Made by a program: the position numbers and the translations under genes. From contig SVFY01000008.1 in assembly GCA_015056625.1 (NCBI GenBank), positions 1 to 64,000 on the forward strand: a stretch of 64,000 nucleotides of DNA, given 5' to 3'. This document shows, one piece after another, positions 5,737 through 43,605 of the stretch (the stretch's first letter is position 1; every line of letters starts with the position of its first letter). Origin of the DNA: Butyrivibrio sp. Its GTDB lineage: Bacteria; Bacillota; Clostridia; Lachnospirales; Lachnospiraceae. The notes under the pieces are model-generated. The model was given only the letters and a program-made list of their open reading frames with translations. It made no database searches and had not been told where the DNA came from.

Positions 5737-5739
5737 ACA

Positions 5740-6813: not shown

Positions 6814-6838
6814 TGAGTAGCAAAAAATTGATATTTTT

Positions 6839-6877
6839 GGCTGTGCTAACAAAAAAATGCTAGCACAGCCTTTTTTA
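6839..6877 (+). terminator. Terminator after the sensor operon
   Basis: GGCTGTGCT and AGCACAGCC form a 9-bp stem (6839-6870) followed by TTTTTT. It separates the sensor and XylF-like genes from the ChvE transport genes. Confidence 0.9.
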
Positions 6878-6910
6878 TTAAATTTTTGTAAATAAAAATG
6901 TGCTGCAATT

Positions 6911-6946
6911 CATAAATCATTGCTATTTGTTTTGTGATAATTTATG
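6911..6946 (+). promoter_or_regulatory. Possible promoter and operator dyad for the monosaccharide transporter
   Basis: CATAAAT (6911-6917) and its inverted copy ATTTATG (6940-6946) flank a GATAAT (6936-6941) that could be a -10 box. No good -35 box is visible, which would fit an activator-dependent promoter. It is the only sizeable gap between the terminator and chvE. Confidence 0.4.
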
Positions 6947-6985
6947 AGTGTAAACAAACCAACTTATTTTTAAGGGAGGGTAATC

Positions 6986-8119
6986 ATGAAAAGAAAACTT
7001 TTAAGTGGATTTCTTGCAACAGCAATGACAATGTCATTACTCGTTGGTTGCGGCTCATCTGCACCAGCAGCAACAGAGACAGCTGAGGCTCCAGCAGCAG
7101 AAGCACCTGCAGCAGAAGCACCTGCAGCTGAGGCAGCAGGCGGCGGAAGAGTAGGTGTTGCAATGCCTACAAAGGATCTCCAGAGATGGAATCAGGACGG
7201 CGAGAACATGCAGAAGCAGCTCGAGGCAGCTGGATACGAAGTTGACCTTCAGTATGCATCAAACGACATTCCTACACAGGTTTCACAGATCGAGAACATG
7301 ATCTCATCTGGCGCTAAGGTTCTTGTAATCGCATCTATCGATGGTGATTCACTTGGAACAGTTCTTGAGCAGGCTAAAGAGCAGGGCGTAGCTGTTATCG
7401 CTTACGACCGTCTTATCATGAATTCAGACGCTGTTTCTTACTATGCTACATTCGATAACTACATGGTAGGAACAAAGCAGGGCGAGTATATCAGAGATCA
7501 GCTGGATCTTGACAACGCTGCAGGCCCATTCAACATCGAGCTCTTCACAGGTGATCCTGGTGACAACAACGCAAGATTCTTCTTCGGCGGCGCTATGGAC
7601 GTACTTAACAAGTACATCGACGAGGGCAAGCTTGTAGTTAAGTCAGGTCAGAAGGATTTCGACGCAGTTGCTACAGCTAACTGGGCAACAGAGAACGCTC
7701 AGTCAAGAATGGATGCTATCATTTCTGCTAACTATGCAGATGGAACAAAGCTTGACGCAGTTTTGTGCTCAAACGACTCAACAGCTCAGGGTGTCACAAA
7801 CTCTCTTGAAGCTAACTACACAGGTGATTGGCCAATCATCACAGGTCAGGACTGTGATATCGTTTCTGTAAAGAACATGATCGCTGGTAAGCAGTCAATG
7901 TCTATCTTCAAGGATACACGTACTCTTGCAGCTAAGACTGTAGAGATGGTTGACGCTATCATGAAGGGTTCAGAGGCTCCAGTTAACGATACAAAGACAT
8001 ACGACAACGGAACAGGTATCATTCCTTCATACCTTTGCGAGCCTGTATTTGCAGACGTTAACAACTACAAGGAACTTCTTATCGATTCTGGTTACTACAC
8101 AGAGGATCAGCTTAAGTAA
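6986..8119 (+). CDS. chvE: Multiple-monosaccharide ABC transporter substrate-binding lipoprotein (ChvE-like)
   Basis: The 377-residue protein has a lipobox (LLVGC) followed by an Ala/Glu/Pro linker with repeated APAAE units (about residues 25-50) that tethers the binding domain to the membrane. The mature domain resembles ChvE throughout: GVAMPTKDLQRWNQDGENM, SNDIPTQVSQIENMISSGAK, VLVIASIDGDSL, VIAYDRLIMNSDAVSYYATF, GPFNIELFTGDPGDNNA, TGQDCD and NDTKTYDNGTG. Proteins of this group bind several aldoses (galactose, arabinose, xylose, glucose). The start is fixed by AGGGAGGG upstream. The stem-loop behind it probably raises its expression over the membrane components. Confidence 0.92.
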   Translation: MKRKLLSGFLATAMTMSLLVGCGSSAPAATETAEAPAAEAPAAEAPAAEAAGGGRVGVAMPTKDLQRWNQDGENMQKQLEAAGYEVDLQYASNDIPTQVSQIENMISSGAKVLVIASIDGDSLGTVLEQAKEQGVAVIAYDRLIMNSDAVSYYATFDNYMVGTKQGEYIRDQLDLDNAAGPFNIELFTGDPGDNNARFFFGGAMDVLNKYIDEGKLVVKSGQKDFDAVATANWATENAQSRMDAIISANYADGTKLDAVLCSNDSTAQGVTNSLEANYTGDWPIITGQDCDIVSVKNMIAGKQSMSIFKDTRTLAAKTVEMVDAIMKGSEAPVNDTKTYDNGTGIIPSYLCEPVFADVNNYKELLIDSGYYTEDQLK

Positions 8120-27663: not shown

Positions 27664-29397
27664 ATGAAGAAAAAGATTTTGTCAGTCATGCTGGCTTCAG
27701 TTTTAGCCATGAGCATGATCGGATGCGGAAGCTCTGCTGTTAGCGGAGTTACTGAGACAGAGACAACAGAGTCTGCAGATTCTACCCAGAGCGCAGACAC
27801 AGCAGAGAGTGCTGATGCTACTGCAGCAGAGGCTACAGGAGAGGGTTCAGGAGAGGATCTCAACGTAATGCTTGAGACACCAGTTGAGTCACTTGACCCA
27901 CAGCAGGCAACAGACGGAACCTCATTTGAGGTAATCGCTGATTACACAGATGGTCTTATGCAGATGGATGCAGATGGACAGGCTGTAAACGCTATTGCTG
28001 AGAGCGTAGACGTTTCAGATGACGGTCTTACATATACATTCCACCTTCGCGCAGATGCTAACTGGAGCAACGGCGAGCCTGTAACAGCTAATGACTTCGT
28101 ATTTGCATGGCAGAGAGCAGTTGATCCTGAAATCGCTTCAGAGTATTCTTACATGCTCAGCGATATCGGCCAGATCGTAAATGCACAGGAGATCATTGAC
28201 GGTGCTAAGGACAAGACAGAACTTGGCGTAACAGCAGTTGATGACAAGACACTTGAGGTTAAGCTCAACGTTCCTGTCAGCTACTTCCTTTCACTTATGT
28301 ACTTCCCAACATTCTACCCTGTAAATCAGGCTTTCTATGAGAGCGTTGGAGATACATTCGCTACAAGCCCAGAGACAACTCTTTCAAACGGTGCATTTGT
28401 ACTTGACGACTATCAGCCAGCAGCAACAGCAATTCACCTTACAAAGAATGCTGACTACTACAATGCTGACAGCGTTAAGCTTGCAGGTCTTAACTACCAG
28501 GTTATCCAGGATTCACAGCAGGCTCTTATGAGCTACCAGAATGGTGACCTTGATACAACTCTTGTAAATGGTGAGCAGGTTGACCAGGTTAAAGATGATC
28601 CAGCATTCCAGGCAATTGGTGCAGGATACATGTGGTACATCAGCCCTAACATCCAGGATGTAAAAGAGCTTGCTAACTTAAATATCCGTTACGCTATCAC
28701 AATGGCTCTCAACAGAGAAGCAATCACAACAGATGTACTTAAGGATGGTTCAGCTCCTACCTTCACAGCAGTTCCTATGGACTTCGCAGCAGGTCCAGAC
28801 GGATCAGACTTCTCAGCAGACCAGACAAAGTTCTCAGATGTATGTAAGTACGACGCAGCAGCTGCTGCAGATTACTGGGCTAAGGGACTTGAGGAACTTG
28901 GCATCACAGAGCTTACACTTACTATGATCCACGATGCTGATGACGCTCCTATCAAGGTTGCACAGGTTGTTAAGGAGCAGCTCGAGACAACACTTCCTGG
29001 ACTTACTGTTGAACTCCAGCAGATGCCTAAGAAGGAGAGAGTACAGCGTATGCAGGAAGGCGAGTTTGAGCTCGGACTTACACGTTGGGGCCCTGACTAT
29101 GCAGATCCTATGACATACCTTGGAATGTGGGTAACAAACAACTCCAACAACTACGGTTTCTGGAGCAATGCTGATTATGACAAGATCATCGACGAGTGCA
29201 CAACTGGTGAGACAGCTATGGATGCTACAGCTCGTTGGGCAGCACTTTACGATGCTGAAAAGATCGTAATGGACGAGGCAGTTATCTTCCCTCTCTACAC
29301 ACAGTGCAATGCAGAGCTTATCTCTACAGATGTATCAGGAATTGAGTTCCACCCTGTTGCTCTCAACAGAGTATATAAGAACGCAGTAAAGAACTGA
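27664..29397 (+). CDS. oppA: Oligopeptide ABC transporter substrate-binding lipoprotein
   Basis: The 577-residue protein has a lipobox (MSMIGC, Cys21) and an acidic Ser/Thr linker. It continues into the SBP_bac_5 fold: VESLDPQQATDGTSF, YTFHLRADANWSNGEPVTAN, DFVFAWQRAVDP, and RWGPDYADPMTYLGMW near the C-terminus. It captures peptides outside the cell for the OppBCDF importer. AGGAGG precedes the ATG. Codon use shows very uniform high-expression choices, and a hairpin follows, consistent with strong expression relative to the other subunits. Confidence 0.95.
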   Translation: MKKKILSVMLASVLAMSMIGCGSSAVSGVTETETTESADSTQSADTAESADATAAEATGEGSGEDLNVMLETPVESLDPQQATDGTSFEVIADYTDGLMQMDADGQAVNAIAESVDVSDDGLTYTFHLRADANWSNGEPVTANDFVFAWQRAVDPEIASEYSYMLSDIGQIVNAQEIIDGAKDKTELGVTAVDDKTLEVKLNVPVSYFLSLMYFPTFYPVNQAFYESVGDTFATSPETTLSNGAFVLDDYQPAATAIHLTKNADYYNADSVKLAGLNYQVIQDSQQALMSYQNGDLDTTLVNGEQVDQVKDDPAFQAIGAGYMWYISPNIQDVKELANLNIRYAITMALNREAITTDVLKDGSAPTFTAVPMDFAAGPDGSDFSADQTKFSDVCKYDAAAAADYWAKGLEELGITELTLTMIHDADDAPIKVAQVVKEQLETTLPGLTVELQQMPKKERVQRMQEGEFELGLTRWGPDYADPMTYLGMWVTNNSNNYGFWSNADYDKIIDECTTGETAMDATARWAALYDAEKIVMDEAVIFPLYTQCNAELISTDVSGIEFHPVALNRVYKNAVKN

Positions 29398-29422
29398 TAA
29401 AAAATAAGGCATAAAGAAGGCT

Positions 29423-29466
29423 ACTGCGCGAAGATGGGTGGTGGACGCTATCTGTCTTCGCGCAGT
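29423..29466 (+). promoter_or_regulatory. Intercistronic stem-loop between oppA and oppB
   Basis: ACTGCGCGAAGA (29423-29434) and TCTTCGCGCAGT (29455-29466) form a perfect 12-bp stem without a T run. It likely stabilises the oppA message and reduces read-through. Confidence 0.8.
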
Positions 29467-29484
29467 TTCTCTATTGGGGTAGTC

Positions 29485-30420
29485 ATGAAAAAATATGTTA
29501 TTAAAAGAGTGGTGACAGCTCTTTTCACCTTGCTGGCCATCACACTGATATTGTTTATACTGATGCAGCTGATGCCGGGTTCTCCATTCAACGATGAGAA
29601 ACTAAACGACACTCAGAGGGCTGCATTATATGCAAAATATGGGCTGGACAAACCGATAATCGTTCAGTTTTTTCAGTATGTCTTTAACATGTTCAGAGGA
29701 GACCTTGGAGTTAGTTACAAGATTTCCAAGAATACACCGATCACACAGCTCATCGCATCCCGTCTTCCAATATCTATCGGAGTTGGATTTGCGGCAGTTA
29801 TGATAGGAGCTGTTGTTGGCCTTTTGCTGGGGCTTTTGGCTGCCTTTAAAAAGGACACAGTCTGGGATACCCTGGCAACGATCATTTCAGTAATCGGAGT
29901 GTCAGTGCCTTCCTACGTGTTTGCGCTGGCTCTGTCTTATCAGTTCGGCTTTAAACTCAAGTGGTTTCCAATGCTCTTTTCAGCAAAAGATGTGATAGGA
30001 TCCAGCGTCCTTCCGTCCATATCGCTGTCCATGTTCACCATGGCTTCAATAGCGAGATTCACAAGGGCGGAGATGATAGAAGTTTTAGGATCTGATTATA
30101 TGCTTCTTGCTGAGTCCAAGGGACTTTCGGGCAACAAGCTTATCTTTTCCCATGCCCTTAGAAACGCCCTTATTCCTATCATTACAGTGCTTGCACCGCT
30201 TGTTGTTGACCTTATGACAGGTTCCCTTGTTGTGGAAAAGATCTTTTCAATCCCTGGAGTTGGGTCACTTCTTGTAAACGCAATCCAGTCTAACGACTAT
30301 AACGTGGTTATAGCCCTTAGCTTTATATATTCAGCAATGTACATTGTGATCATGCTGGCTGTGGATATACTCTACGGCGTCATCGATCCAAGAATTCGTG
30401 TGGCAAAGGAGGGAGACTAA
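29485..30420 (+). CDS. oppB: Oligopeptide ABC transporter permease OppB
   Basis: The protein has about 311 residues and six membrane segments. It begins MKKYVIKRVVTALFTLLAIT and contains QLMPGSPF and YGLDKPIIVQFFQY. The EAA loop is AESKGLSGNKLIFSHALRNAL and is followed by a periplasmic P-loop region (PGVGSLLVNAIQSNDYNVV). An upstream in-frame ATG at 29434 lies inside the oppA-oppB hairpin and would add non-family residues, so 29485 is the true start. It pairs with OppC to form the peptide channel. Confidence 0.93.
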   Translation: MKKYVIKRVVTALFTLLAITLILFILMQLMPGSPFNDEKLNDTQRAALYAKYGLDKPIIVQFFQYVFNMFRGDLGVSYKISKNTPITQLIASRLPISIGVGFAAVMIGAVVGLLLGLLAAFKKDTVWDTLATIISVIGVSVPSYVFALALSYQFGFKLKWFPMLFSAKDVIGSSVLPSISLSMFTMASIARFTRAEMIEVLGSDYMLLAESKGLSGNKLIFSHALRNALIPIITVLAPLVVDLMTGSLVVEKIFSIPGVGSLLVNAIQSNDYNVVIALSFIYSAMYIVIMLAVDILYGVIDPRIRVAKEGD

Positions 30421-30421
30421 A

Positions 30422-31477
30422 ATGGCAGAAACAGTTATGCTTGAAAAAGAGCCCTACGTGCCTACAGATGCGGATTTTAAGCTTAAAGGGAACGATAAAG
30501 ACATCCTTGTGGATTCAAACTTTGCTTCCCAGAGCTTTTGGAAAGAGGTTATTGCAAGGTTTAGAAAGAAAAAGAGCGCAGTATTTGGACTTATCTTTGT
30601 GCTTGTGATCACTTTCTTTGCCTTTGTGGGACCTTCCATGAACAGCTACACATACTCGGGGCAGGATCTGTCACAAAAGAATCTTGCACCGAGGATTCCT
30701 CTTATAGAGTACACAGGCTTTTTTGATGGTCACGAAAACATCGCAACCACCAAAGGAACCAAGACAGTTAACCTCTATTTTGAGAATAAGCTTCCTGATA
30801 CCTTCTACTGGTTTGGAAGTGACAACTTTGGACGAGACATCTGGACAAGAACCTGGTCTGGAGCCCAGGTTTCACTTATCATCGCAGTTGCTGCGGCTAT
30901 CATCGACATGATCATCGGTATGAGCTACGGCCTTATTTCCGGATATTTTGGCGGAAAAGTGGATATGGTGATGCAGAGGATCTTAGAGATTGCCAACGGT
31001 ATCCCAAGGCTTGTTATCGTAACCCTTCTTCTTTTGGTGTTTAAGCCAGGTATGCTGACCATCATCGTGGCTTTGATGCTGACAGAATGGGTGGGAATGA
31101 GCAGGATTGCAAGAGCAGAGATGCTTAAATTAAAGGAGCAGGAGTTCGTTCTTGCTTCAAGAACACTGGGCGCTGGAAGCATGCACATTATTTTCAGCGA
31201 GGTCCTTCCTAATATCATTGGACCTATCATAACCCAGGTTATGTTCTCTATTCCTACAGCGATCTTCACAGAAGCTTTCCTGTCCTTTGTTGGACTTGGA
31301 ATCCCGGTACCAAGATGTTCACTTGGCTCCCTTATTTCAGAAGGCTTCAACAGCTTTACAACGCACCCTTATCAGATAATTCCACCAATTGTGGTTATGG
31401 CGCTTCTGATGCTGAGCTTTAACCTGGTGGCAGACGGTCTTAGAGAGGCCCTGGATCCCAAGCTTAAGGAGATGTAA
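30422..31477 (+). CDS. oppC: Oligopeptide ABC transporter permease OppC
   Basis: The 351-residue permease has a cytoplasmic N-terminal region (about 1-55), a first membrane helix (SAVFGLIFVLVITFFAFVGP) and a large extracellular loop with FGSDNFGRDIWTRTWSGAQV, the OppC signature. It continues with the EAA loop LASRTLGAGSMHIIFSEVLP and FLSFVGLGIPVP. The start at 30422 follows AAGGAGGGAGAC; the frame opens further upstream but without a ribosome site. Confidence 0.94.
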   Translation: MAETVMLEKEPYVPTDADFKLKGNDKDILVDSNFASQSFWKEVIARFRKKKSAVFGLIFVLVITFFAFVGPSMNSYTYSGQDLSQKNLAPRIPLIEYTGFFDGHENIATTKGTKTVNLYFENKLPDTFYWFGSDNFGRDIWTRTWSGAQVSLIIAVAAAIIDMIIGMSYGLISGYFGGKVDMVMQRILEIANGIPRLVIVTLLLLVFKPGMLTIIVALMLTEWVGMSRIARAEMLKLKEQEFVLASRTLGAGSMHIIFSEVLPNIIGPIITQVMFSIPTAIFTEAFLSFVGLGIPVPRCSLGSLISEGFNSFTTHPYQIIPPIVVMALLMLSFNLVADGLREALDPKLKEM

Positions 31478-31483
31478 GACCAG

Positions 31484-32623
31484 ATGAGTGAAGAAAAGAA
31501 ATTACGTGAAAAAATACTGGATGTCAAAAATCTTGACATCACCTTTGAGACAACTGCCGGTAAGGTACATGCCATCAGAGGAGTTAATATAGATCTCTAT
31601 CAGGGCGAGACTGTAGCCATTGTTGGTGAGTCTGGCTCTGGTAAGTCAGTTACAATGCGAGCAGCTATGGGTATTCTTGCCAAGAACGCAGTTGTAAACA
31701 GCGGAGAGATCATCTACAGATATCGCGATAATGTAGGCGGAATCGACTACAACCCTGAAAACGACGCTAATGCACAGTGGAAAGAAGCAGATATCCTTAA
31801 GATGGACAAGAAGTGGATCAGAAAGCACATCAATGGCCGAAGGATCGCCATGGTGTTCCAGGATCCCATGACCAGTCTTGATCCTACCATGACCATTGGT
31901 AAGCAGATCATGGAAGGAATGATCTGGCATTACAAGATCGACAAGAAGGACGCCTATGACAGGGCAGTTAACCTTCTTAAGGAAGTTGGTATTGAAGATG
32001 CTGAAAAGAGAATGAAGCAGTATCCACATCAGCTCTCAGGCGGAATGAGACAGAGAGTTGTCATAGCTATAGCTCTTTCCTGTAACCCTGATCTTCTTAT
32101 CTGCGACGAGCCAACAACGGCCCTTGATGTTAACATTCAGGCCAAGATCCTTGAGCTTATCAAAAAGGTTCAGAAGGAGAGAGATATTGCGGTAATCTAC
32201 ATAACCCATGACCTGGGCGTTGTGGCTAAGGTTGCAGATTACGTAAATGTCATGTACGCAGGAAAGATCGTTGAGGTCGGCAACATAAACGAGATCTTCT
32301 ATGAGCCAAAGCACCCATACACCTGGGGACTTTTGTCAGCAATGCCTGACCTTGGAACAGACGACGACAGGCTCTACACAATCCCTGGTTCACCTCCAAA
32401 CCTTCTCCACGAGAAGGAGGGAGATGCATTTGCACCTAGAAATGCTTATGCACTGGAGATTGACGACAAGCTTGAACCTCCAATGTTCCAGATTTCAGAG
32501 ACCCACTGGGCAGCCACATGGCTCCTTGACCCAAGAGCTCCCAAGGTAGAGATGCCAAAAGAGCTTAAGGCCAGAATTGAGAGAATGAAGAAGGAGGCAG
32601 GTGTTAATGACAGCAAATTATAA
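31484..32623 (+). CDS. oppD: Oligopeptide ABC transporter ATP-binding protein OppD
   Basis: The 379-residue ATPase has Walker A GESGSGKSV, Q-loop MVFQDPMTSLDPTMTIGKQI, signature LSGGMRQRVVIAIAL, Walker B LLICDEPTTALDV and switch histidine ITHDLGVV. The C-terminal oligopeptide-transporter extension is PGSPPNLLHEKEGDAFAPRN. In most OppD/F proteins this extension carries cysteines for an Fe-S cluster; here it reads without them. It overlaps the oppF gene by 17 bp. Confidence 0.95.
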   Translation: MSEEKKLREKILDVKNLDITFETTAGKVHAIRGVNIDLYQGETVAIVGESGSGKSVTMRAAMGILAKNAVVNSGEIIYRYRDNVGGIDYNPENDANAQWKEADILKMDKKWIRKHINGRRIAMVFQDPMTSLDPTMTIGKQIMEGMIWHYKIDKKDAYDRAVNLLKEVGIEDAEKRMKQYPHQLSGGMRQRVVIAIALSCNPDLLICDEPTTALDVNIQAKILELIKKVQKERDIAVIYITHDLGVVAKVADYVNVMYAGKIVEVGNINEIFYEPKHPYTWGLLSAMPDLGTDDDRLYTIPGSPPNLLHEKEGDAFAPRNAYALEIDDKLEPPMFQISETHWAATWLLDPRAPKVEMPKELKARIERMKKEAGVNDSKL

Positions 32624-33551
32624 TGCAGAGCCTCTTTTGGAGGTAAAGGGACTTAAGCAGTATTTCCCTGTCAGCAAGACATATACAGTTAAGGCAGTAG
32701 ATGATGTGAGCTTTAAGGTATATCCTGGTGAGACTTATGGCCTTGTTGGAGAATCAGGATCAGGTAAGTCCACAATAGGAAGGAGCATCATAAGGCTCTA
32801 CGACCCAACGGAGGGAACCATCAATTTCTGCGGAATGGACATCTCCGGAAAGATGAGCAGGGATGTAAAGGAAAAGCTCCGTATCCAGATGCAGATGATC
32901 TTCCAGGATCCAATGGCTTCCCTTAATCCAAGAAAGAAGATAAAAGACATCATTGGAGAAGCCCTTGATGTACATCACTTCTATAACAGCAAGGCAGAGA
33001 GGGACCAGCGCGTTGAGGCTATCCTTGAAAAGGTAGGACTTGCCAAGGAACACGCTGACAGATATCCCCACCAGTTCTCAGGCGGACAGCGTCAGAGAGT
33101 AGGAATCGCAAGAGCTCTTATCCTCAATCCCAAGCTTGTTATTGCAGATGAGTGCATTTCAGCCCTTGACGTTTCGATCCAGGCCCAGGTTGTCAACCTT
33201 ATGAAGGACATCCAGGCAGAGCTTGGAACAGCATACCTTTTCATCGCCCATGATCTTTCAATGGTTAAATACATCTCTGACAGGATCGGAGTTTTGCACC
33301 TTGGACATTTACTTGAGACGGGAACAACGGATGAGATCTTTTCAAATCCAATCCATCCCTATACGAAATCTCTTTTGTCTGCAATCCCGATTCCTAATCC
33401 GGAGCTGGAAAAGAACCGCGAAGCCATAAACTACGACTACAAGACTTCCGGGATTGACTACGCTAAGGGCACAGAGCACCTGGTTAGCGGTTCCCACTAC
33501 GTAAAATGTACAGACGAAGAGTTTGAGGCATGGACAAAGAAGTCCGTCTGA
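32607..33551 (+). CDS. oppF: Oligopeptide ABC transporter ATP-binding protein OppF
   Basis: The 314-residue ATPase has Walker A GESGSGKSTIGRSI, MIFQDPMASLNPRKKI, signature FSGGQRQRVGIARAL, Walker B LVIADECISALDVS (Cys in place of Pro after DE) and switch histidine IAHDLSMVKYISD. The typical terminal oligopeptide domain ends HYVKCTDEEFEAW. ATG 32607 lies 9 bases after AAGGAGG; a GTG at 32601 is in frame but too close. It is the last gene of oppABCDF. No terminator is visible before the ileS promoter. Confidence 0.95.
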   Translation: MTANYNAEPLLEVKGLKQYFPVSKTYTVKAVDDVSFKVYPGETYGLVGESGSGKSTIGRSIIRLYDPTEGTINFCGMDISGKMSRDVKEKLRIQMQMIFQDPMASLNPRKKIKDIIGEALDVHHFYNSKAERDQRVEAILEKVGLAKEHADRYPHQFSGGQRQRVGIARALILNPKLVIADECISALDVSIQAQVVNLMKDIQAELGTAYLFIAHDLSMVKYISDRIGVLHLGHLLETGTTDEIFSNPIHPYTKSLLSAIPIPNPELEKNREAINYDYKTSGIDYAKGTEHLVSGSHYVKCTDEEFEAWTKKSV

Positions 33552-33897: not shown

Positions 33898-36800
33898 ATG
33901 TATAACAAAGTCGATACCGATATGAATTTTGTCGGCAGAGAAAAGAAGATTGAAGAGTTTTGGAAAAAAGAAGACATTTTCCAGAAGAGCGTCGATACCC
34001 GCAGCCAGGGTGAGATGTATATGTTCTATGATGGACCTCCAACAGCTAATGGTAAGCCACATATTGGACACGTTCTTACCCGTGCCATCAAGGATATGAT
34101 CCCAAGATACCGTACAATGAAGGGTTACACAGTTCCCCGTAAGGCTGGTTGGGACACTCACGGACTTCCTGTAGAGCTGGAAGTTGAGAAGATGCTTGGT
34201 CTCGACGGCAAAGAGCAGATCGAAGAGTACGGCATTGAGCCTTTCATCAAGAAATGTAAGGAATCCGTGTGGAAGTACAAGGGAATGTGGGAAGATTTCT
34301 CAGGTACAGTCGGATTCTGGGCTGACATGGAGCATCCTTACATTACATATGACGACAACTTTATTGAGTCTGAGTGGTGGGCTCTTAATGAGATCTGGAA
34401 GAAAGGTCTTTTATACAAGGGATTTAAGGTAGTTCCTTACTGCCCTCGCTGTGGCACACCTCTTTCATCTCACGAGGTGGCTCAGGGCTACAAGACATTA
34501 AAAGAGCGCACAGCGGTTGTTCGTTTTAAGGTTACAGGGGAAGACGCTTACTTCCTCGCATGGACAACAACACCATGGACACTTCCTTCAAACATCGGTC
34601 TTTGCGTAAACCCTGATGAGAAGTATGTCAAGGTTAAGGCAGCAGATGGATATACATATTACCTGGCAGAGGCTCTTGCAGACACAGTTCTTGGTGGTCT
34701 GTCAAAAGAGGAAGGCCAGAAGGCATATGAAGTACTTGAGACATATGTTGGAACAGATCTTGAGTACAAGGAATATGAGCCACTTTATCAGTGTGCCAAG
34801 GATGAGGCTGACAAGCAGCACAAGAAGGCATTCTTTATCTACTGTGACAACTATGTAACCATGTCAGATGGTACTGGTATCGTACATATCGCTCCTGCAT
34901 TTGGTGAAGACGACGCAAGAGTAGGACGCAAGTACGACGCACCACTTGTACAGATGGTTGACAGCGAAGGAAGACTTAAACCTGAGACACCTTTTGCAGG
35001 CTACAGATGTAAGCCTACACAGAAGGAAATGGATGAGGGTGCAATAAGTGCAGATCCAGAGGTACTTAAGGACCTTGATGCAAGGGGACTTCTTTTCTCA
35101 GCACCCAAGATGGAGCACGATTATCCTCACTGCTGGAGATGTTCTACACCACTTCTGTACTACGCTCGTTCATCATGGTTCATCAAGGTTACAGAGGTTA
35201 AGGATGACCTTATCCGCAACAACAAGGAGATCAACTGGGTTCCTGAGTCAATCGGTAAGGGACGTTTCGGCGACTGGCTTGAGAACATTCAGGACTGGGG
35301 TATCTCCCGTGACAGATACTGGGGAACACCACTTAATATCTGGGAGTGCGACGATTGCGGTCATCAGCTTTCTGTAGGTTCAAGAAAAGAACTTGCTGAG
35401 CTTTCAGGCGATCCATCTGCTGAAACCTGTGAGCTTCACAGACCATATATCGACAAGTATGAGATCACTTGTCCTAAGTGCGGCAAGAAGATGCACAGGG
35501 TAAAAGAGGTTATTGACTGTTGGTTCGACTCAGGAGCAATGCCATTTGCACAGCTCCACTACCCATTTGAGAATAAGGAGCTCTTTGAGAAGCAGTTCCC
35601 TGCTGAGTTCATCTCAGAGGCTGTAGACCAGACAAGAGGATGGTTCTATTCACTTCACGCAGAGGCAACACTTCTTTTCAACAAGCCAGCATTTAAGAAC
35701 GTTATCGTTCTTGGTCTTGTACAGGATGAGAACGGACAGAAGATGAGTAAGTCAAAGGGCAATGCAGTTGATCCTTTCGACGCTCTAGAAAAATATGGTG
35801 CAGATGCCATCAGATGGTATTTCTACACCAACTCAGCTCCATGGCTTCCAAGCCGCTTCTCAGGAGATGCGGTTATGGAGGGACAGCGTAAGTTCCTTGG
35901 TACACTTTGGAACACTTATGCATTCTTTACACTGTATGCAAATATTGATGGCTTTGATGCTGCTAACTACAAACTGGAACTTGATAAGCTCACAGTTATG
36001 GATAAGTGGCTTCTTAGTAAGCTTAACAGCTGCGTAAAGGCTGTTGATGACAACCTGAATAATTATAGGATCCCAGAAGCTGGTAAGGCTCTTGATAACT
36101 TTGTTGACGAGATGAGTAACTGGTATGTAAGAAGATCCCGTGAGAGATTCTGGGCTAAGGGAATGGAGCAGGATAAGATCTCTGCTTACATGACTCTTTA
36201 CACTGCCCTTGTTACAGTTTCCAAGGCAGCAGCGCCTATGGTTCCATTCATGACTGAGGAGATCTACCAGAACCTTGTAAGAAACAGCTTTAAGGATGCA
36301 CCAGAGTCAATCCACCTTTGCGACTTCCCTGCTGTTGATGAGTCACTTATCGACACCAAGCTTGAGAAGGACATGGAGGAAGTTCTCGATATCGTAGTTC
36401 TTGGAAGAGCAGCAAGAAATGCAGCAAACATCAAGAACCGTCAGCCAATCGGACAGATGTATGTAAAGGCAGAGCAGACTGTAGGCGAGTTCTATACAGA
36501 CATTATCAGAGAAGAGCTCAATGTCAAGAACGTTGCATTTACAGACGATGTAAGAGATTTTACAAGCTACAGCTTCAAGCCACAGCTTAAGACTTTAGGA
36601 CCTAAGTATGGCAAGAACATCGGAGCTATCAAGTCTTACCTTGAGACTCTTGATGGCAATGCTACAATGGATGAGCTTAACACAAATGGTTCTATCAAGT
36701 TCACAGTTAATGATGTGGATGTAGAGCTTGTTAAGGATGATCTCCTTATCGAGATGGCTCAGAAGGAAGGCTTCATTTCTCAGGAGAACTGGGGAATCAC

Positions 36801-37089
36801 AGTTGTTCTTGACACGAACCTTACACAGGAGCTCTTAAACGAAGGCTTTGTCCTTGAGGTTATCAGTAAGGTTCAGACCATGCGTAAGGATTCCGGATTC
36901 GAAGTTATGGATCACATCAAGGTTTCCTTAAACGGCAACGACAAGCTTGCTGAAATTGTTAAGGCCAATGAGAGCAGCATCTCAACTAAAGTACTTGCCA
37001 ACGAGGTTGTATACGGATCCGATGTGGCCAACGCTAAAGAGTGGGATATCAACGGCGAGAAGGTTACAATCGGCGTTGAAAAGGTCTGA
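33898..37089 (+). CDS. ileS: Isoleucine-tRNA ligase
   Basis: The 1063-residue class I synthetase has the HIGH motif in GKPHIGHVL, KMSKS in GQKMSKSKGNAVDP, and the GWDTHGLPVE and WTTTPWTLPSN segments of IleRS with the editing domain between. Cysteine pairs YCPRCG, CDDCG and CPKCG suggest bound zinc. It charges tRNA-Ile with isoleucine and edits valine. The length and the pattern of the C-terminal third point to the longer, eukaryote-like IleRS type 2, often linked to mupirocin tolerance; this subtype call is an inference. AAAGGAGC precedes the ATG, and the Ile T-box lies upstream. Confidence 0.96.
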   Translation: MYNKVDTDMNFVGREKKIEEFWKKEDIFQKSVDTRSQGEMYMFYDGPPTANGKPHIGHVLTRAIKDMIPRYRTMKGYTVPRKAGWDTHGLPVELEVEKMLGLDGKEQIEEYGIEPFIKKCKESVWKYKGMWEDFSGTVGFWADMEHPYITYDDNFIESEWWALNEIWKKGLLYKGFKVVPYCPRCGTPLSSHEVAQGYKTLKERTAVVRFKVTGEDAYFLAWTTTPWTLPSNIGLCVNPDEKYVKVKAADGYTYYLAEALADTVLGGLSKEEGQKAYEVLETYVGTDLEYKEYEPLYQCAKDEADKQHKKAFFIYCDNYVTMSDGTGIVHIAPAFGEDDARVGRKYDAPLVQMVDSEGRLKPETPFAGYRCKPTQKEMDEGAISADPEVLKDLDARGLLFSAPKMEHDYPHCWRCSTPLLYYARSSWFIKVTEVKDDLIRNNKEINWVPESIGKGRFGDWLENIQDWGISRDRYWGTPLNIWECDDCGHQLSVGSRKELAELSGDPSAETCELHRPYIDKYEITCPKCGKKMHRVKEVIDCWFDSGAMPFAQLHYPFENKELFEKQFPAEFISEAVDQTRGWFYSLHAEATLLFNKPAFKNVIVLGLVQDENGQKMSKSKGNAVDPFDALEKYGADAIRWYFYTNSAPWLPSRFSGDAVMEGQRKFLGTLWNTYAFFTLYANIDGFDAANYKLELDKLTVMDKWLLSKLNSCVKAVDDNLNNYRIPEAGKALDNFVDEMSNWYVRRSRERFWAKGMEQDKISAYMTLYTALVTVSKAAAPMVPFMTEEIYQNLVRNSFKDAPESIHLCDFPAVDESLIDTKLEKDMEEVLDIVVLGRAARNAANIKNRQPIGQMYVKAEQTVGEFYTDIIREELNVKNVAFTDDVRDFTSYSFKPQLKTLGPKYGKNIGAIKSYLETLDGNATMDELNTNGSIKFTVNDVDVELVKDDLLIEMAQKEGFISQENWGITVVLDTNLTQELLNEGFVLEVISKVQTMRKDSGFEVMDHIKVSLNGNDKLAEIVKANESSISTKVLANEVVYGSDVANAKEWDINGEKVTIGVEKV

Positions 37090-37120
37090 AGATCAAATAG
37101 TATAGATTAGTTTTTTTATG

Positions 37121-37152
37121 CGGCCCGGGAATTTTTCCTGGGCCGTATTTTA
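37121..37152 (+). terminator. ileS terminator
   Basis: CGGCCCGGG and CCTGGGCCG form a 9-bp stem (one G-T pair) around AATTTTT, followed by TATTTTATTTT. Confidence 0.88.
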
Positions 37153-37198
37153 TTTTCATGATTAATCGTTCGAAATTTAATAAAAATTTCAAAATCTA

Positions 37199-37227
37199 CT
37201 AAGTATGCATAAATAATCAGCCGATAC
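37199..37227 (+). promoter_or_regulatory. Sigma-28 (SigD/FliA) promoter for flagellin genes
   Basis: CTAAG (37199-37203), a 16-bp spacer and GCCGATAC (37220-37227) closely match the flagellar sigma consensus TAAA-N14/16-GCCGATAT. A flagellin gene follows. Confidence 0.85.
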
Positions 37228-37236
37228 ATAAAGTGA

Positions 37237-37288
37237 CCGCAAGGATGCGGATGAGCACGCATGGAAGCAAAACGCTATTTTTTTAGGA
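37237..37288 (+). promoter_or_regulatory. Possible CsrA-binding leader of the flagellin mRNA
   Basis: CCGC-AAGGAT-GCGG (37237-37250) is a small hairpin presenting GGA in a six-base loop, the usual CsrA target shape. It lies at the expected 5' end of the transcript. Two more GGA sites follow (ATGGAAGC at 37261 and TTAGGATA near the start codon). In Bacillus the flagellin leader is controlled by CsrA in this way. Confidence 0.5.
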
Positions 37289-37303
37289 TATTAGGTATAG
37301 AAC

Positions 37304-39046
37304 ATGGTAGTTCAGCACAACCTTTCGGCAATGAATTCTAATAGACAGCTTGGGATAACAACAGGCATTCAGGCTAAATCCTCAGAGAAGCTGTCATCTG
37401 GATATAAGATCAATCGCGCTGCAGATGATGCAGCGGGTCTTGCTATTTCCGAAAAAATGAGAAGACAGATAAGGGGATTGTCACAGGGAGCTGAAAATAT
37501 TCAGGATGGAATATCTATGCTCCAGATTGGAGATGGAGCCCTTGAAGAAGTCATGGATATGCTTCATAGAATGACTACCCTATCTGTAAAAGCTGCTAAT
37601 GATACTCTGACCAATGAAGATAGAAGTTATATTCAGCAGGAAACAAACGCTCTTCTTGAAGAGATTGACCGAATCGATTCAGTTACCGAGTTTAATAATA
37701 TTCGGATCTTTGGAAACCGTGAAATTTACTTGAGCAATGCAGATGGGTCGCCTCTCATAGAGGGAGATATTCCATTTAGCAGTTTTTCTTTTGCAGACGT
37801 AAATATCAATAAAAACGCTGTCTTCAACAGTGGAAGCAGTGCCAATACTCTTTCTCTTCAGGCAGTGATCAACGATAGTAAGTCTGCTGCCAACGGAAAA
37901 GTGTACAGAATGATCTATGGAGATGGCTCTACATCTTCGTCATCTGTAAGGTTTTCTTTCGATAATGGCGGAAACACAGAAACAAGAACTGCAAATCTGA
38001 CAGAGTTTAGCATTGGGAGTTATGTAAATAATCAGGGAACTGCTTCGCGCGTTTTTTCATATGATAAAGATGGCATTAAGTTTGATATTAAACAGACTGT
38101 AACTCCAAATGCAGTGGATAAGAACTATAACATCCAGTATGAACTTGAAAACAAGGGTGATATAGATCTTGACATGGAGTTTATGTTCCATGTAGATACT
38201 GCATACAACAATAATGACTTATGTGAAAGCTACTATACTGGCGGGGATAGGATAAAGACTACCAGAGTATATGTAAGTGATGATTATGACAAGATACAGG
38301 ATGGAACTGGAGTCTATTCGGATATTCCAGATAGTATTTCTATCATCAATCGTCAGGAGGCGCTGGCGTTTTCTGAAAAGATTGAATTTACTACACCTCC
38401 AGACATGCTTTCAATAGGGCGTTATCATTCTATTCCTGATTGGGAATATTACGGTCCTAACATGCACTTAGGGGCTTCTACTGAGAATATGGATCTTGGA
38501 TACAGTGCCTTGTGGCAGGATAAAGACCTATCTGCTGGTAAGACAATGTCCTTTAGCTTTAAATTTGGAATTGCTGAAACGAAACAGGATGCAAATCTGG
38601 ATCACAGCGAGGTCAAGAAATCAAACAAAACAACAGTTCTCACAGAAGAAGCTAAACAGTTCTGGATCCAGGCTAGTTCCACTGTTGAGGATGGTATGTA
38701 TATCAGCTTTGGTTCAATTGACCAGGATACATTGGGACTGACAGATCTGGACGTTTCAAAATCTGTAAGGGCAAGGGAATCTATACAGAAGATCAAAGAC
38801 GCTCAGGAACATGTTTCAAAACTCAGAAGCCATCTGGGGGCTCAGCAAAACAGACTTGAGCATACCTATAAGAATAACAGGAACGCAGAAGAAAACACGA
38901 CTGCAGCGGAATCAAGAATACGTGATACAGATATGGCGTCTGAAATGGTCAGATATTCCAACAATAACATCTTAGCTCAGGCAGGACAATCAATGCTTGC
39001 TCAGGCCAATCAGACCAATCAGGGAGTTTTAAGTCTTCTTCAGTAA
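37304..39046 (+). CDS. Flagellin with a large unidentified central domain
   Basis: The 580-residue protein has standard flagellin ends: N-terminal D0/D1 (MVVQHNLSAMNSNRQLG; KLSSGYKINRAADDAAGLAI) and C-terminal D1/D0 (SRIRDTDMASEMV; NILAQAGQSMLAQANQTNQ). The middle, about residues 150-430, is not the usual short D2/D3. It looks beta-rich (KFDIKQTVTPNAVDKNYNIQ; LDMEFMFHVDTAYNNNDLCE; GKTMSFSFKFGIAE) and includes a single Cys. It would project from the filament surface; a binding or enzymatic role is possible but unrecognised. The ends are nearly identical to those of the next gene, so the two can co-assemble. The ribosome site is weak. Confidence 0.93.
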   Translation: MVVQHNLSAMNSNRQLGITTGIQAKSSEKLSSGYKINRAADDAAGLAISEKMRRQIRGLSQGAENIQDGISMLQIGDGALEEVMDMLHRMTTLSVKAANDTLTNEDRSYIQQETNALLEEIDRIDSVTEFNNIRIFGNREIYLSNADGSPLIEGDIPFSSFSFADVNINKNAVFNSGSSANTLSLQAVINDSKSAANGKVYRMIYGDGSTSSSSVRFSFDNGGNTETRTANLTEFSIGSYVNNQGTASRVFSYDKDGIKFDIKQTVTPNAVDKNYNIQYELENKGDIDLDMEFMFHVDTAYNNNDLCESYYTGGDRIKTTRVYVSDDYDKIQDGTGVYSDIPDSISIINRQEALAFSEKIEFTTPPDMLSIGRYHSIPDWEYYGPNMHLGASTENMDLGYSALWQDKDLSAGKTMSFSFKFGIAETKQDANLDHSEVKKSNKTTVLTEEAKQFWIQASSTVEDGMYISFGSIDQDTLGLTDLDVSKSVRARESIQKIKDAQEHVSKLRSHLGAQQNRLEHTYKNNRNAEENTTAAESRIRDTDMASEMVRYSNNNILAQAGQSMLAQANQTNQGVLSLLQ

Positions 39047-39098
39047 AAGAGATAAGCAGACGATGTGATGATCGTATAGAGCAAATGAGGAATAAGAA

Positions 39099-40967
39099 AT
39101 GGTAGTTCAGCATAACTTATCGGCAATGAATTCAAATAGGCAGCTGGGAATAACCACAGGCATCCAGGCTAAGTCCTCAGAGAAGTTGTCTTCTGGATAC
39201 AAGATCAACAGGGCGGCAGATGACGCAGCAGGCCTTGCCATTTCCGAAAAGATGAGAAGGCAGATCAGGGGACTTACTCAGGCCTCAGCAAATGCTCAGG
39301 ACGGAGTATCACTCGTTCAGATAGCAGATGGTGCACTTCATGAAGTACATGACATGATCCAGAGAGGTAACGAACTGGCTGTGAAGGCGGCCAATGATAC
39401 CCTGACTTCAATAGACAGAACCTACATCAATTCTGAGATTCAAAAGCTGAAAGAAGAGATTGATGCCATAGGTGGAAAGACCACCTTTAACGAGATCAAG
39501 ATATTTCCGCCTGATGGCGCATCCATTAGTGAAGCAACATCAGCGCAGAAAGAGCTTGCAAATAAGATCGCCACAGAGATGATCCCGACAGCTATGTCAC
39601 AGATACTTGCTAAGCTTTCAGGATCAGTTGGAGAAAAGCTTGATGCACTTGCTGCAGCCAACCCGACTGATTATGGCATGGATCTTAATATTACTTACAT
39701 CGATGGACCTAATGGCACACTGGCAGTTATGGGTGCGAGTATGAGAGCAGGAAATGGGATCCGTGACACTTTCGTCCCTGAATCACTTCTTATGAAAGTC
39801 GACTCAGCAGATTTCTCGTCTGTAAATATCAGTGACGATTTGAGACAGTCGCTGGAATCAACCGTAGCACACGAGCTCATGCACGGAGTTATGGATGTTT
39901 TGATGCCTGAAGGTATGGCGGGACGAGATTCTGATGGAAATGTCGTTGAGGATATTGACAAAGGAACTTTTCCTAAGTGGTTTGTTGAAGGTTCTGCCCA
40001 GCTGGTTGGAGGAGGATTTACCAGTGGCTGGAACTGGAAGATAGCGGATATAGTTGGAGGCTCTGGGAGCGATGCTGACAAGCAGACAGCTATACGAAAT
40101 TATTTAAAGACTGAGACTGTAGAGGACAATGTATACGGTCACGGATACCTTGAATGTGCATATCTGTGCCAGCTGGCCAGTGGTCAGGGGTTAACAAACG
40201 TCACACAGGGAAGCCTCATTGCGGGTGCAAACAAAATTTATAATGCACTGATGGATGGTGAGGCAGCTTATTCACATTCTTTTGAAGACGTCATCGATAG
40301 CGTCATCGATACCGAGATCTCAGGGGTAAAAAAGACACTTTCTAAAGCTCTTGATGACATAAATAAAGGAACAAGTGACGGAGGGGCATTTGTTTTAAGC
40401 CTTGCCAAGGCAAGTCAGCCTGGCGATGAAAGCGGCTTTGTAGGAGCTGGATCAATTGTTGCAGCAAGCCTTAACTCCAGCTTTGTACTTGGAGAAACAG
40501 TTACAGATCCACAGGCCCTGTATGTTAAGAACGTGGACGCCAAGGCTGCTAAAGAAGATGATGATAAAACAATTCTTTACCTTCAAGTTGGCTCAGAAAC
40601 TTCTGCTCCTAATGAAATTGCAGTAAAAAGATTTGCAATGTCTGCAGCAGCTATCGGAGTTGGAGAGACAAAAACGTTAACAAGGACCGATGCACTGGAA
40701 GCAATTACCCAGTTCAAGGGGGCTCTTATAAATGTCAGCACCATGCGTTCCTACTATGGTGCTATGCAGAACAGACTTGAGCACACCATTAAGAATCTTG
40801 ATAATGTCGTAGAAAACACCCAGTCAGCTGAGTCAAGGATCCGTGACACAGATATGGCAGCTGAGATGGTAAGATATTCAAACAATAACATCTTAGCGCA
40901 GGCAGGTCAGTCAATGCTTGCCCAGGCTAATCAGACAAATCAGGGAGTACTTAGCCTGCTCCAGTGA
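39099..40967 (+). CDS. Flagellinolysin: flagellin with embedded zinc metalloprotease domain
   Basis: The 622-residue protein has flagellin D0/D1 ends nearly identical to the preceding gene. The hypervariable region (about 150-490) holds a gluzincin-type peptidase. HELMH at 258-262 gives two zinc ligands and the catalytic Glu, and Glu297 in FPKWFVEGSAQLVGGG is the third ligand. Flagellinolysins are known from Clostridium haemolyticum and relatives, where they form proteolytically active filaments. GAGGAAT precedes the ATG. It lies 52 bp after flagellin 1 and probably shares the sigma-28 transcript. Family assignment is strong; activity and substrate are not shown by sequence. Confidence 0.93.
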   Translation: MVVQHNLSAMNSNRQLGITTGIQAKSSEKLSSGYKINRAADDAAGLAISEKMRRQIRGLTQASANAQDGVSLVQIADGALHEVHDMIQRGNELAVKAANDTLTSIDRTYINSEIQKLKEEIDAIGGKTTFNEIKIFPPDGASISEATSAQKELANKIATEMIPTAMSQILAKLSGSVGEKLDALAAANPTDYGMDLNITYIDGPNGTLAVMGASMRAGNGIRDTFVPESLLMKVDSADFSSVNISDDLRQSLESTVAHELMHGVMDVLMPEGMAGRDSDGNVVEDIDKGTFPKWFVEGSAQLVGGGFTSGWNWKIADIVGGSGSDADKQTAIRNYLKTETVEDNVYGHGYLECAYLCQLASGQGLTNVTQGSLIAGANKIYNALMDGEAAYSHSFEDVIDSVIDTEISGVKKTLSKALDDINKGTSDGGAFVLSLAKASQPGDESGFVGAGSIVAASLNSSFVLGETVTDPQALYVKNVDAKAAKEDDDKTILYLQVGSETSAPNEIAVKRFAMSAAAIGVGETKTLTRTDALEAITQFKGALINVSTMRSYYGAMQNRLEHTIKNLDNVVENTQSAESRIRDTDMAAEMVRYSNNNILAQAGQSMLAQANQTNQGVLSLLQ

Positions 40968-40984
40968 TGATAATAGCCATGTTT

Positions 40985-41030
40985 CCCCTGTACAAAGGCG
41001 TACAAACGCTGATGCACAGGGGATTTCTTA
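40985..41030 (+). terminator. Hairpin after the flagellin genes
   Basis: CCCCTGT (40985) pairs with ACAGGGG (41016-41022) around an inner GCGT/ACGC stem, followed by ATTTCTTATT. The T tract is interrupted. Confidence 0.6.
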
Positions 41031-41121: not shown

Positions 41122-43605
41122 ATGATGAAGAAAAAGAAGATGTCTTTTGACAAGGATCTGTTCAAGAGAAGCGTTCTGTACAATGTTAAGACTCTGTACA
41201 GGAAGACTATGGAGGAAGCAGAGCCTCAGGAGCTGTATCAGGCGGCGGCTTATGCCATCAAGGATGCCATAGTTGACCACTGGATGACTACTCAGAAGGC
41301 AGCAGCCGAGCAGGATCCAAAGATAGTTTACTACATGTCCATGGAATTCCTTATGGGTAGGGCATTTGGTAACAATATCATCAATCTTCAGGCATATAAA
41401 CCAGTCAAGGACGCCCTTGATGAACTGGGAATAGATGTAAATGTACTTGAGGATCAGGAGCCGGATCCAGCTCTTGGTAATGGCGGCCTTGGAAGACTTG
41501 CAGCATGCTTTCTTGATTCTCTTTCAACTCTTGGTTACATGGCCTATGGCTGTGGTATCCGCTACAAATATGGTATGTTCCGCCAGAAGATAAGAGACGG
41601 CTATCAGGTAGAGGTTCCGGATACGTGGCTTGAGAACGGCAATCCATTTGAGCTTAGGAGAAATGAGTACGCCAAGGAAGTTAAGTTTGGCGGTTATGTA
41701 AACATGTACACCGATGACCGCGGCAGAACAGTGTTCAAGCAGGAGGGATATCAGGTAGTTAAGGCTGTTCCTTACGATCTTCCTGTTGTGGGCTACGGAA
41801 ACGGCGTTGTTAACACCTTGAGGATCTGGGATGCTGAGCCTATCCAGTGCTTCCAGCTTGATTCCTTTGACAAGGGCGACTATCAGAAGGCTGTAGAGCA
41901 GGAGAATCTTGCCAGCCAGCTGTGCGAAGTTCTTTACCCCAATGACAATCATATCGCAGGAAAAGAGCTAAGACTCAAGCAGCAGTATTTCTTTATCTCT
42001 GCTTCAGTTCAGACTGCTCTTAAGAGATACCTTAAAAATCACGACGATATCAAGAAGTTCTACGAAAAAGCTGTATTCCAGCTCAACGATACACATCCTA
42101 CAGTAGCAGTTGCAGAGCTTATGAGACTTCTCATGGATGAGTACTACCTCACATGGGATGAGGCCTGGGATGTAACTGTTAAGACCTGCTGCTACACCAA
42201 CCACACCATCATGGCAGAGGCTCTTGAGAAGTGGCCTGTAGATCTTTTCCAGAGGCTTCTTCCAAGAATCTATCAGATCGTGGATGAGATCAACAGAAGA
42301 TTTGTTGACCAGATCATGCGCCAGTACACTGGAAGCGCAGGCATTGATGTTCAAGCCAAGATCCGTAGCATGGCTATTCTTTATGACAATCAGGTCAAGA
42401 TGGCTCACCTTGCCATCGTTGGTGGACATTCGGTAAACGGTGTTGCCAAGCTTCACACTGAGATCCTTGAAAAGAGAGAGCTCAAGGACTTCTACGAGAT
42501 GATGCCTGAGAAGTTCAACAACAAGACCAACGGTATCACACAGCGTAGATTCCTTCTTCACGCTAATCCACTTCTTGCACAGTGGGTTACTGACAAGATC
42601 GGAGATGGTTGGATCACAGACCTTTCAGAGATGGACAAGCTCAAGGCATTTGTTAATGACAAGAAGGCCCTTGAGGAGTTCATGGATATCAAGTACCAGA
42701 ACAAGAAGCGCCTTGCAGCCTACATCAAGGAGCACAACGGCGTTGAGGTTGATCCTAAGTCAATTTTTGATGTTCAGGTAAAGAGACTTCACGAGTACAA
42801 GAGACAGCTCCTTAATATCCTTCAGGTTATCCACAAGTACAAGGATATCAAGGCTCATCCTTCAAAGGATTTCTATCCAAAGACATATATCTTTGGTGCC
42901 AAGGCAGCAGCTGGTTACCTTACAGCCAAGCTCACCATCAAGCTTATCAACTCTGTAGCTGAGGTGGTCAACAATGACCCTGACATCAAGGGAAGACTTA
43001 AGGTTGTATTCATTGAGGATTATAAGGTTTCAAACGCAGAGCTCATCTTTGCTGCAGCTGATATCTCTGAGCAGATCTCAACAGCAAGTAAAGAGGCTTC
43101 TGGAACCGGTAACATGAAGATGATGCTCAACGGTGCTGTGACACTGGGAACTCTTGATGGTGCTAACGTTGAGATCGTAAATGAAGTTGGTGAAGAGAAT
43201 GCATTTATCTTTGGTCTTACTTCTCAGGAAGTAATGGACTTTGAGAGAAATGGCGGCTACAATCCTATGGATATCTACAACTCAGATCCTAACGTCAAGA
43301 GCGTTCTTGACAGCCTTGTAGATGGCACATTCTCAAGCGATAAAGAGCTGTTCAGGCCTCTGTACAACTGCCTTCTTAACACAGTTAACTCAAACAAGGC
43401 TGACCAGTACTTCATTCTTAAGGACTTCGAGGCTTACCTTGAGGCCCACAGAAAGATCACAGACGCCTATGCAGACAAGAAGCGCTGGGCTAAGATGTCA
43501 CTTCTTAATACAGCATCCTGCGGTAAGTTCTCATCAGACAGAACTATTCAGGAATATGTTGATGAAGTATGGCACCTCGACAAGCTCAATATGGATGTTA
43601 AGTAA
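41122..43605 (+). CDS. glgP: Glycogen/maltodextrin phosphorylase
   Basis: The 827-residue protein has GT35 signatures: VYYMSMEFLMGRAFGNNI, EPDPALGNGGLGRLAACFLD, QLNDTHPTVAVAELMRL, HEYKRQLLNILQVIHKY and the PLP-binding lysine in EASGTGNMKMMLNGA. It releases glucose-1-phosphate from the ends of glycogen or dextrins in the cytoplasm. GAGGAGG precedes adjacent ATGs at 41122 and 41125. It is a single-gene unit bounded by hairpins on both sides. The galKT genes at 47 kb lead to the same glucose-1-phosphate pool. Confidence 0.96.
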   Translation: MMKKKKMSFDKDLFKRSVLYNVKTLYRKTMEEAEPQELYQAAAYAIKDAIVDHWMTTQKAAAEQDPKIVYYMSMEFLMGRAFGNNIINLQAYKPVKDALDELGIDVNVLEDQEPDPALGNGGLGRLAACFLDSLSTLGYMAYGCGIRYKYGMFRQKIRDGYQVEVPDTWLENGNPFELRRNEYAKEVKFGGYVNMYTDDRGRTVFKQEGYQVVKAVPYDLPVVGYGNGVVNTLRIWDAEPIQCFQLDSFDKGDYQKAVEQENLASQLCEVLYPNDNHIAGKELRLKQQYFFISASVQTALKRYLKNHDDIKKFYEKAVFQLNDTHPTVAVAELMRLLMDEYYLTWDEAWDVTVKTCCYTNHTIMAEALEKWPVDLFQRLLPRIYQIVDEINRRFVDQIMRQYTGSAGIDVQAKIRSMAILYDNQVKMAHLAIVGGHSVNGVAKLHTEILEKRELKDFYEMMPEKFNNKTNGITQRRFLLHANPLLAQWVTDKIGDGWITDLSEMDKLKAFVNDKKALEEFMDIKYQNKKRLAAYIKEHNGVEVDPKSIFDVQVKRLHEYKRQLLNILQVIHKYKDIKAHPSKDFYPKTYIFGAKAAAGYLTAKLTIKLINSVAEVVNNDPDIKGRLKVVFIEDYKVSNAELIFAAADISEQISTASKEASGTGNMKMMLNGAVTLGTLDGANVEIVNEVGEENAFIFGLTSQEVMDFERNGGYNPMDIYNSDPNVKSVLDSLVDGTFSSDKELFRPLYNCLLNTVNSNKADQYFILKDFEAYLEAHRKITDAYADKKRWAKMSLLNTASCGKFSSDRTIQEYVDEVWHLDKLNMDVK

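Follow-up and report, generated by a model that had tools for sequence, protein, structure and literature searches.

The window, i.e., the whole 64 kb stretch of DNA analyzed here, carries two adjacent flagellin genes between the housekeeping genes for isoleucyl-tRNA synthetase (IleRS) and glycogen phosphorylase (GlgP). The initial annotation placed the second of these correctly in both coordinates and strand, as an open frame of 622 amino acids that begins with ATG and has zero internal stops. On the evidence of its sequence, it is confirmed to encode a full-length flagellinolysin, a metallopeptidase embedded in a flagellin and a kind of protein already known. What is newer, and the part worth following, is the exchangeable site in which the gene lies and the secreted and dockerin-bearing relatives of its protease; these non-flagellin relatives, the exchangeable site, and the paired flagellin are additions of the present analysis. 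The features are as follows.

33898-37089, forward strand: IleRS, named by eye; left flank of the site
37090-40981, no strand: exchangeable segment, replaced in genome G328 and absent in genome G326 (blastn breakpoints 37089 and 40982/40984)
37118-37148, forward strand: terminator-like hairpin behind IleRS, with a stem of 14 pairs and then a T-rich tail
37200-37226, forward strand: sigma-D/sigma-28-type promoter-like site, TAAG-N16-GCCGATA
37304-39046, forward strand: partner flagellin of 580 amino acids with a different central domain (PF00669, 1.7e-35; PF00700, 4e-25)
39099-40967, forward strand: flagellinolysin coding sequence
39099-39503, forward strand: its flagellin N-terminal D0/D1 part, residues 1 to 135 (PF00669)
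39495-40496, forward strand: its catalytic core as used for comparisons, residues 133 to 466 (alignment A3; pLDDT above 90 in most ten-residue blocks)
39801-39812, forward strand: D235 to D238 (DxxDF), candidate calcium site
39870-39884, forward strand: HELMH, residues 258 to 262, with predicted zinc ligands H258 and H262 and general base E259
39987-39989, forward strand: E297 in WFVEG, the third of the predicted zinc ligands
40719-40964, forward strand: its flagellin C-terminal D1/D0 part, residues 541 to 622 (PF00700)
40985-41022, forward strand: CCCCTGT...ACAGGGG hairpin with a T-rich tail in the conserved right flank, found by eye and missing from the terminator-scan list
41122-43605, forward strand: GlgP (TIGR02093, 1156.8 bits); right flank of the site

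The flagellin ends, which had been described as standard, are recognized as Flagellin_N (PF00669, E of 3.5e-38, residues 3 to 136) and Flagellin_C (PF00700, E of 3.8e-26, residues 540 to 621). The profile comparison with flagellinolysins that had been proposed as a check returns NCBIfam NF033876 matched end to end (positions 1 to 384 of 384, protein residues 110 to 553) with 231.3 bits, above its cut-off of 205. Both HELMH and the glutamate of WFVEG are found at the residues reported for them, and the name flagellinolysin and the assignment of three predicted zinc ligands hold on the basis of this profile and of motif conservation. A foreign base composition of the gene is not evident (G+C of 0.456, compared with 0.435 for the window), and a search of 72,556 plasmid records at an E of 1e-5 gave zero matches. 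The genome that contains the window (G000) is 85% complete. Neither a flagellinolysin in Butyrivibrio nor the IleRS-GlgP locus appeared in the titles and abstract starts that made up our literature search.

The partner flagellin lies 52 bp upstream of the flagellinolysin, and the two genes fill the exchangeable segment together with the single sigma-D-type site. The middle of the partner, of about 350 residues, has zero Pfam matches over the cut-off, and related middles with 52 to 53% identity occur in three other genomes among the 79 of the genus, which is probably Butyrivibrio. Residues 1 to 59 are identical between the two window flagellins, and their DNA is about 85% identical over the first 180 bases. 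As silent sites are heavily diverged between them (pS of 0.566 and dS of 1.05), recent gene conversion is rejected as the source of this identity, and the retention of 59 identical residues despite so much silent change fits selection for co-assembly. Swapping of protease domains between paralogues of the same genome was also considered as the usual route and is mostly not supported by the 14 flagellinolysin genes compared, namely, those that share their stretch with a flagellin lacking the protease. At its N-terminal end, the gene was closer to the flagellinolysin of another genome in 11 of the 14, tied at two decimals in one (L072), and closer to the gene's own partner in two (L097 by 0.03 and L080 by 0.01), with values for the window gene of 0.76 to its own partner versus 0.85 to L070.

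The promoter-like site begins 104 bp before the partner flagellin and is the sole match in the 64 kb window, where 0.03 would be expected; we take it to be of the sigma-D type on the basis of the consensus for such promoters. Similar sites precede only some of the relatives' genes. As the terminator scan listed none between the two flagellin genes, both may form one transcript. Elsewhere, G000 has two further Flagellin_N loci, one for a flagellin of 395 aa and one for a 255-aa protein whose sole match is Flagellin_N, and the export gate FlhA is present (884 bits).

The content of the IleRS-GlgP interval was compared by sampling the stretch before GlgP from 40 genomes together with 22 flagellinolysin stretches of the genus. 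Forty-six of the 79 genus genomes were counted, these having both flanks on one stretch (for G000, in the window) and passing the filter, so that IleRS as left neighbor and GlgP as right neighbor in all 46 are selection criteria. The interval is "empty," with 133 to 211 bp, in 10 of the 46; it holds a flagellinolysin in another 10, a flagellin without protease in 8 (including G340, where it was recognized by profile only), and no recognized flagellin, without being among the empty ones, in 18. The nearest genome by glycogen phosphorylase, G328, shares 94.6% DNA identity with the window over 3.3 kb of the left flank, up to the IleRS stop codon at 37089, and 96.1% over 0.6 kb of the right flank, from 40982 on. 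The 4.2 kb between these flanks contain three other genes, none of them recognized as a flagellin, and in the next nearest genome, G326, about 40 bp stand in place of the cassette. The hairpin at 40985-41022 is assigned to the right flank because it is present in both. By eye, the G328 trio (L200:8524-12601) consists of a glycosyltransferase-like gene, an oxidoreductase-like gene, and a gene for a 717-aa protein of no named kind, and in G308 and G304 the site is occupied by similar trios.

Two kinds of protease are found at the site. Clade A is represented there in G000, G302, G309, and G320 and clade B in G306, G361, G364, G365, G369, and G371, with starred support of 99 and 97 in a quick tree with SH-aLRT values only; the window core is 25 to 30% identical to the clade B cores. 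Relatives of the partner middle are scattered: in G369 it belongs to the next flagellin upstream of a clade B flagellinolysin at the IleRS-GlgP site, in G358 it is at the site without a protease, and in G317 it and GlgP are on different contigs. The two clades and these scattered middles together show that different middles and partners are combined at one place, and the simplest reading is that homologous recombination within the housekeeping genes on either side would exchange the cassette. Other flagellinolysins of the genus, for instance those of G312, G313, G316, and G363, are on contigs other than that of GlgP. One gene away from the site, at 27664-33551, is a gene set for an ABC transporter of the oligopeptide type (SBP_bac_5 with two permeases and two ATPases), which would suit feeding on peptides; since the flank that holds it is common to G328 and G326, both without the cassette, its presence does not count as evidence for a functional connection.

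The catalytic core is also found outside flagellins. Profile matches in the genus include long non-flagellin proteins; as judged by eye, most of them open with what resembles a signal peptide, and many finish in an acidic tail. Core-bearing proteins without flagellin ends are found in L088-L093, L101, L185-L188, L190-L199, L251-L254, and L059. When 19 secreted cores, selected with the motif (alignment A4), were compared by hhalign with 36 flagellin cores (A3), a probability of 99.95 and an E of 1.8e-37 were obtained over 273 columns. All 19 keep the catalytic residues of flagellinolysin, as their selection by motif would favor, and at an E of 0.01 all 19 match NF033876 alone in NCBIfam, an example member reaching 60 bits, far below the cut-off. 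Six whole secreted proteins gave zero Pfam matches over the cut-off, and for the core-bearing non-flagellin proteins tested, NCBIfam and Pfam yielded no family specific to them. A search with A4 located 22 places of at least 155 bits in 18 of the 79 genus genomes and none in the genome of the window, whose flagellinolysin scores 65 bits. Flagellin ends were recognized by profile at 0 of the 22 places, among which L198, L199, and L253 are cut by contig ends. Two shorter forms of the secreted family (L194 and L254) have a lipoprotein-like start by eye, and the 797-aa frame of L252 (G310), which matches the family with 189 bits, has zero HExxH and is therefore perhaps inactive. In another genus, a protein at L189:857-2968 joins a type I dockerin (PF00404, E of 1.9e-10) to a flagellinolysin-like core that falls in protease clade B. 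In the tree, which has a midpoint root only and three long rows, all 19 secreted cores fall together on one side, with starred support.

Within the genus, the NF033876 cut-off is passed in 11 of the 79 genomes, and at a threshold of at least 128 bits there are 23 genes in 22 genomes. In a sample of the family with about one genome per genus, 2 of 299 genomes pass the cut-off; 155 of the 299 match at some level, but weak matches are not counted as members because most of those listed cover only the end of the profile, which is flagellin C-terminal sequence. Across the phylum, 7 of 398 genomes, that of the window included, match profile A3 at an E of at most 1e-10. A scan of named genome records gave 103 related stretches; 80 of them, making up 79 loci, were retained. 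At 77 of these loci, a single open frame contains the motif pair together with one or both flagellin ends, the second end being absent in L147, L150, and L160; the two remaining loci are L133, which is in pieces, and L165, which is without the glutamate. The guess of a rumen or gut bacterium fits these records, which come from Butyrivibrio and other Lachnospiraceae and are in several cases labeled rumen, while the description of the enzyme as unusual is partly wrong, given its presence in 22 of the 79 genus genomes and the 103 related stretches. Longer forms also occur, with flagellins of about 950 to 1,090 aa in L098, L099, and L102 (G278, G054, and G097) that carry the protease and several hundred extra middle residues, and Lachnospiraceae bacterium MC2017 has two divergent adjacent flagellinolysin genes (L108:3313-5208 on the reverse strand and 5584-7437 on the forward strand).

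The residues predicted to form the active site are conserved. The motif pair is not explained by chance: among 20,000 shuffles of residues 136 to 540, HExxH arose in 0.16%, and the full pair, with W[FY]xEG after HExxH, in 0. In alignment A2, where the window protein stands beside 57 relatives taken from named records, H258, E259, H262, W294, F295, E297, G298, D235, and D238 are invariant in all 58 rows, as are Y346, G347, G349, and Y350 of a YGHGYL stretch, a count that is biased because the retrieval patterns overlap the motifs and only genes with the motif pair entered. By analogy with Asp206 of Clostridium haemolyticum FliA(H), the calcium-site aspartate before HExxH (PMC5595980) and their putative counterpart, D235 and D238 are candidates for a calcium role. 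A less biased set is provided by the whole-profile search (at least 128 bits in the genus and at least 83 bits in other genera), in which all 22 genus genes, counted one per genome with the window included, retain an intact HExxH..W[FY]xEG, as do 9 of 10 genes from other genera. G313 has a second copy, L074, that likewise keeps the pair. The one gene without it, that of G283, shows HGLMH in a disturbed frame; the nine that keep the motif include L014, which is the L189 gene and no flagellin, and a gene of G031 with a stop inside the matched region. As shown by the dN/dS values of the protease part in three close pairs of relatives (0.234, 0.061, and 0.044, with dS near saturation in the second), this part is under purifying selection in close relatives; comparisons involving the window gene itself are saturated or nearly so. 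Loss does occur, as G283, the pieces of L133, and the secreted L252 demonstrate.

Structure prediction from the single sequence was uninformative (pLDDT of 36.5), and with the A2 alignment it reached a mean pLDDT of 85.5 and a pTM of 0.72. In the resulting model, HExxH lies within a helix of residues 246 to 268 and E297 within a helix of residues 293 to 304, in blocks with a pLDDT of 95 to 96, and this modeled order of helices suits a gluzincin. A gluzincin motif is also carried by the M9 clostridial collagenases. One of these, ColG, was the top PDB match of sequence profile A1, but with a nonsignificant E of 0.25, and it was absent from the PDB matches of profile A3 up to an E of 10; Pfam M9 gave zero matches to the window protein up to an E of 1. 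Comparison of the full model by Foldseek and VIA-align returned only flagellins among the best 50 matches listed, with 9hpz of Roseburia hominis leading.

It could be proposed that the gluzincin-like part is simply an outer structural or antigenic domain, with protease activity absent or irrelevant, since flagellin middles at the IleRS-GlgP site vary widely and the general base in G283 and the HExxH in secreted L252 have been lost. We regard this as very unlikely, as the motif pair is intact in all 22 genus genes even though their cores come down to 17 to 60% identity with that of the window gene, and the 19 secreted cores, themselves motif selected, also retain these residues. Less likely again is that the protein, once exported by the flagellum, is for the most part set free as a soluble protease and not retained in the filament. 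The secreted homologues without flagellin ends in the genus would be in keeping with such a role, as would the 12.8% residual activity in C. haemolyticum supernatant, which was attributed to fragmented filaments (PMC5595980); against it are both intact flagellin ends and the 59 residues shared with the partner despite heavy silent change, which fit selection for co-assembly. That the gene is silent or decaying, as its restriction to 22 of 79 genomes and the broken copies G283 and L133 might hint, is the least likely of all, given the open frame, the promoter-like site before the flagellin pair, and the low dN/dS in relatives.

The reading that we consider, taken as a whole, very probably correct is that the flagellinolysin would be exported, co-assembled with other flagellins, and displayed on the filament as a zinc protease, with the flagellin pair forming a cassette of variable content at the IleRS-GlgP site. 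By analogy, the flagellar type III apparatus would export the protein, and its D0/D1 ends would co-polymerize with the other flagellins of the cell, so that a predicted calcium-dependent protease of the gluzincin type, with zinc held by H258, H262, and E297 and E259 as the base, may be displayed along the filament surface. Filament assembly and protease activity are inferred here from what has been described of the two studied flagellinolysins (PMC5595980 and PMC7643111). It is conceivable that the filament would then cut surrounding proteins, most simply to supply peptides, although the substrate is a guess. Mucin and competitor proteins, put forward earlier as possible targets, are likewise conjectural.

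Such a placement would put proteolytic flagella into fiber-degrading gut bacteria that the main texts of PMC5595980 and PMC7643111 do not name. The exchangeable locus offers a natural comparison among close species that carry a protease flagellin, another flagellin, unrelated genes, or nothing at the same place, and the secreted and dockerin-bearing relatives are a concrete lead to the origin of the flagellin protease. It may be speculated further, as a combined proposal that is possible and that we would stop short of calling probable, that the IleRS-GlgP interval of Butyrivibrio-type bacteria is an exchange site through which complete flagellin cassettes, two anciently diverged kinds of protease flagellin among them, are swapped between species, and that the protease either arose from the unnamed secreted and dockerin family of these bacteria or goes back to a secreted ancestor common to both. 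This ancestor would then be the one that the discoverers of flagellinolysin left undetermined.

When placed beside known systems, the window protein belongs to the family classified as MEROPS M101 (PMC7643111). A link of flagellinolysin to the M9 collagenases is stated in PMC5595980, and the gluzincin motif is common to ColG/ColH and the window protein, but their sequence similarity is not significant. The secreted Lachnospiraceae proteins, such as L091 and L185, share the same catalytic core but are without flagellin ends. FliA(H) of C. haemolyticum, for which the recombinant domain and the filaments are both active (PMC5595980), resembles the window protein in its flagellin ends, its HExxH with a distal glutamate, and a conserved, putatively equivalent aspartate before HExxH, and a second flagellin is present in the cell in both cases. 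The two differ in host and sequence and in location, as the FliA(H) gene lies in a flagellar cluster whereas the window gene lies between housekeeping genes. In this last respect, the closer parallel is HgrFlaMP of Hylemonella gracilis, which has the same architecture and an active recombinant domain, and whose gene also lies outside the flagellar gene cluster (PMC7643111). Unlike the Butyrivibrio case, its host is a Gram-negative freshwater bacterium, and that report, in the passages covered here, names no adjacent flagellin, whereas in the window the flagellinolysin is directly preceded by one.
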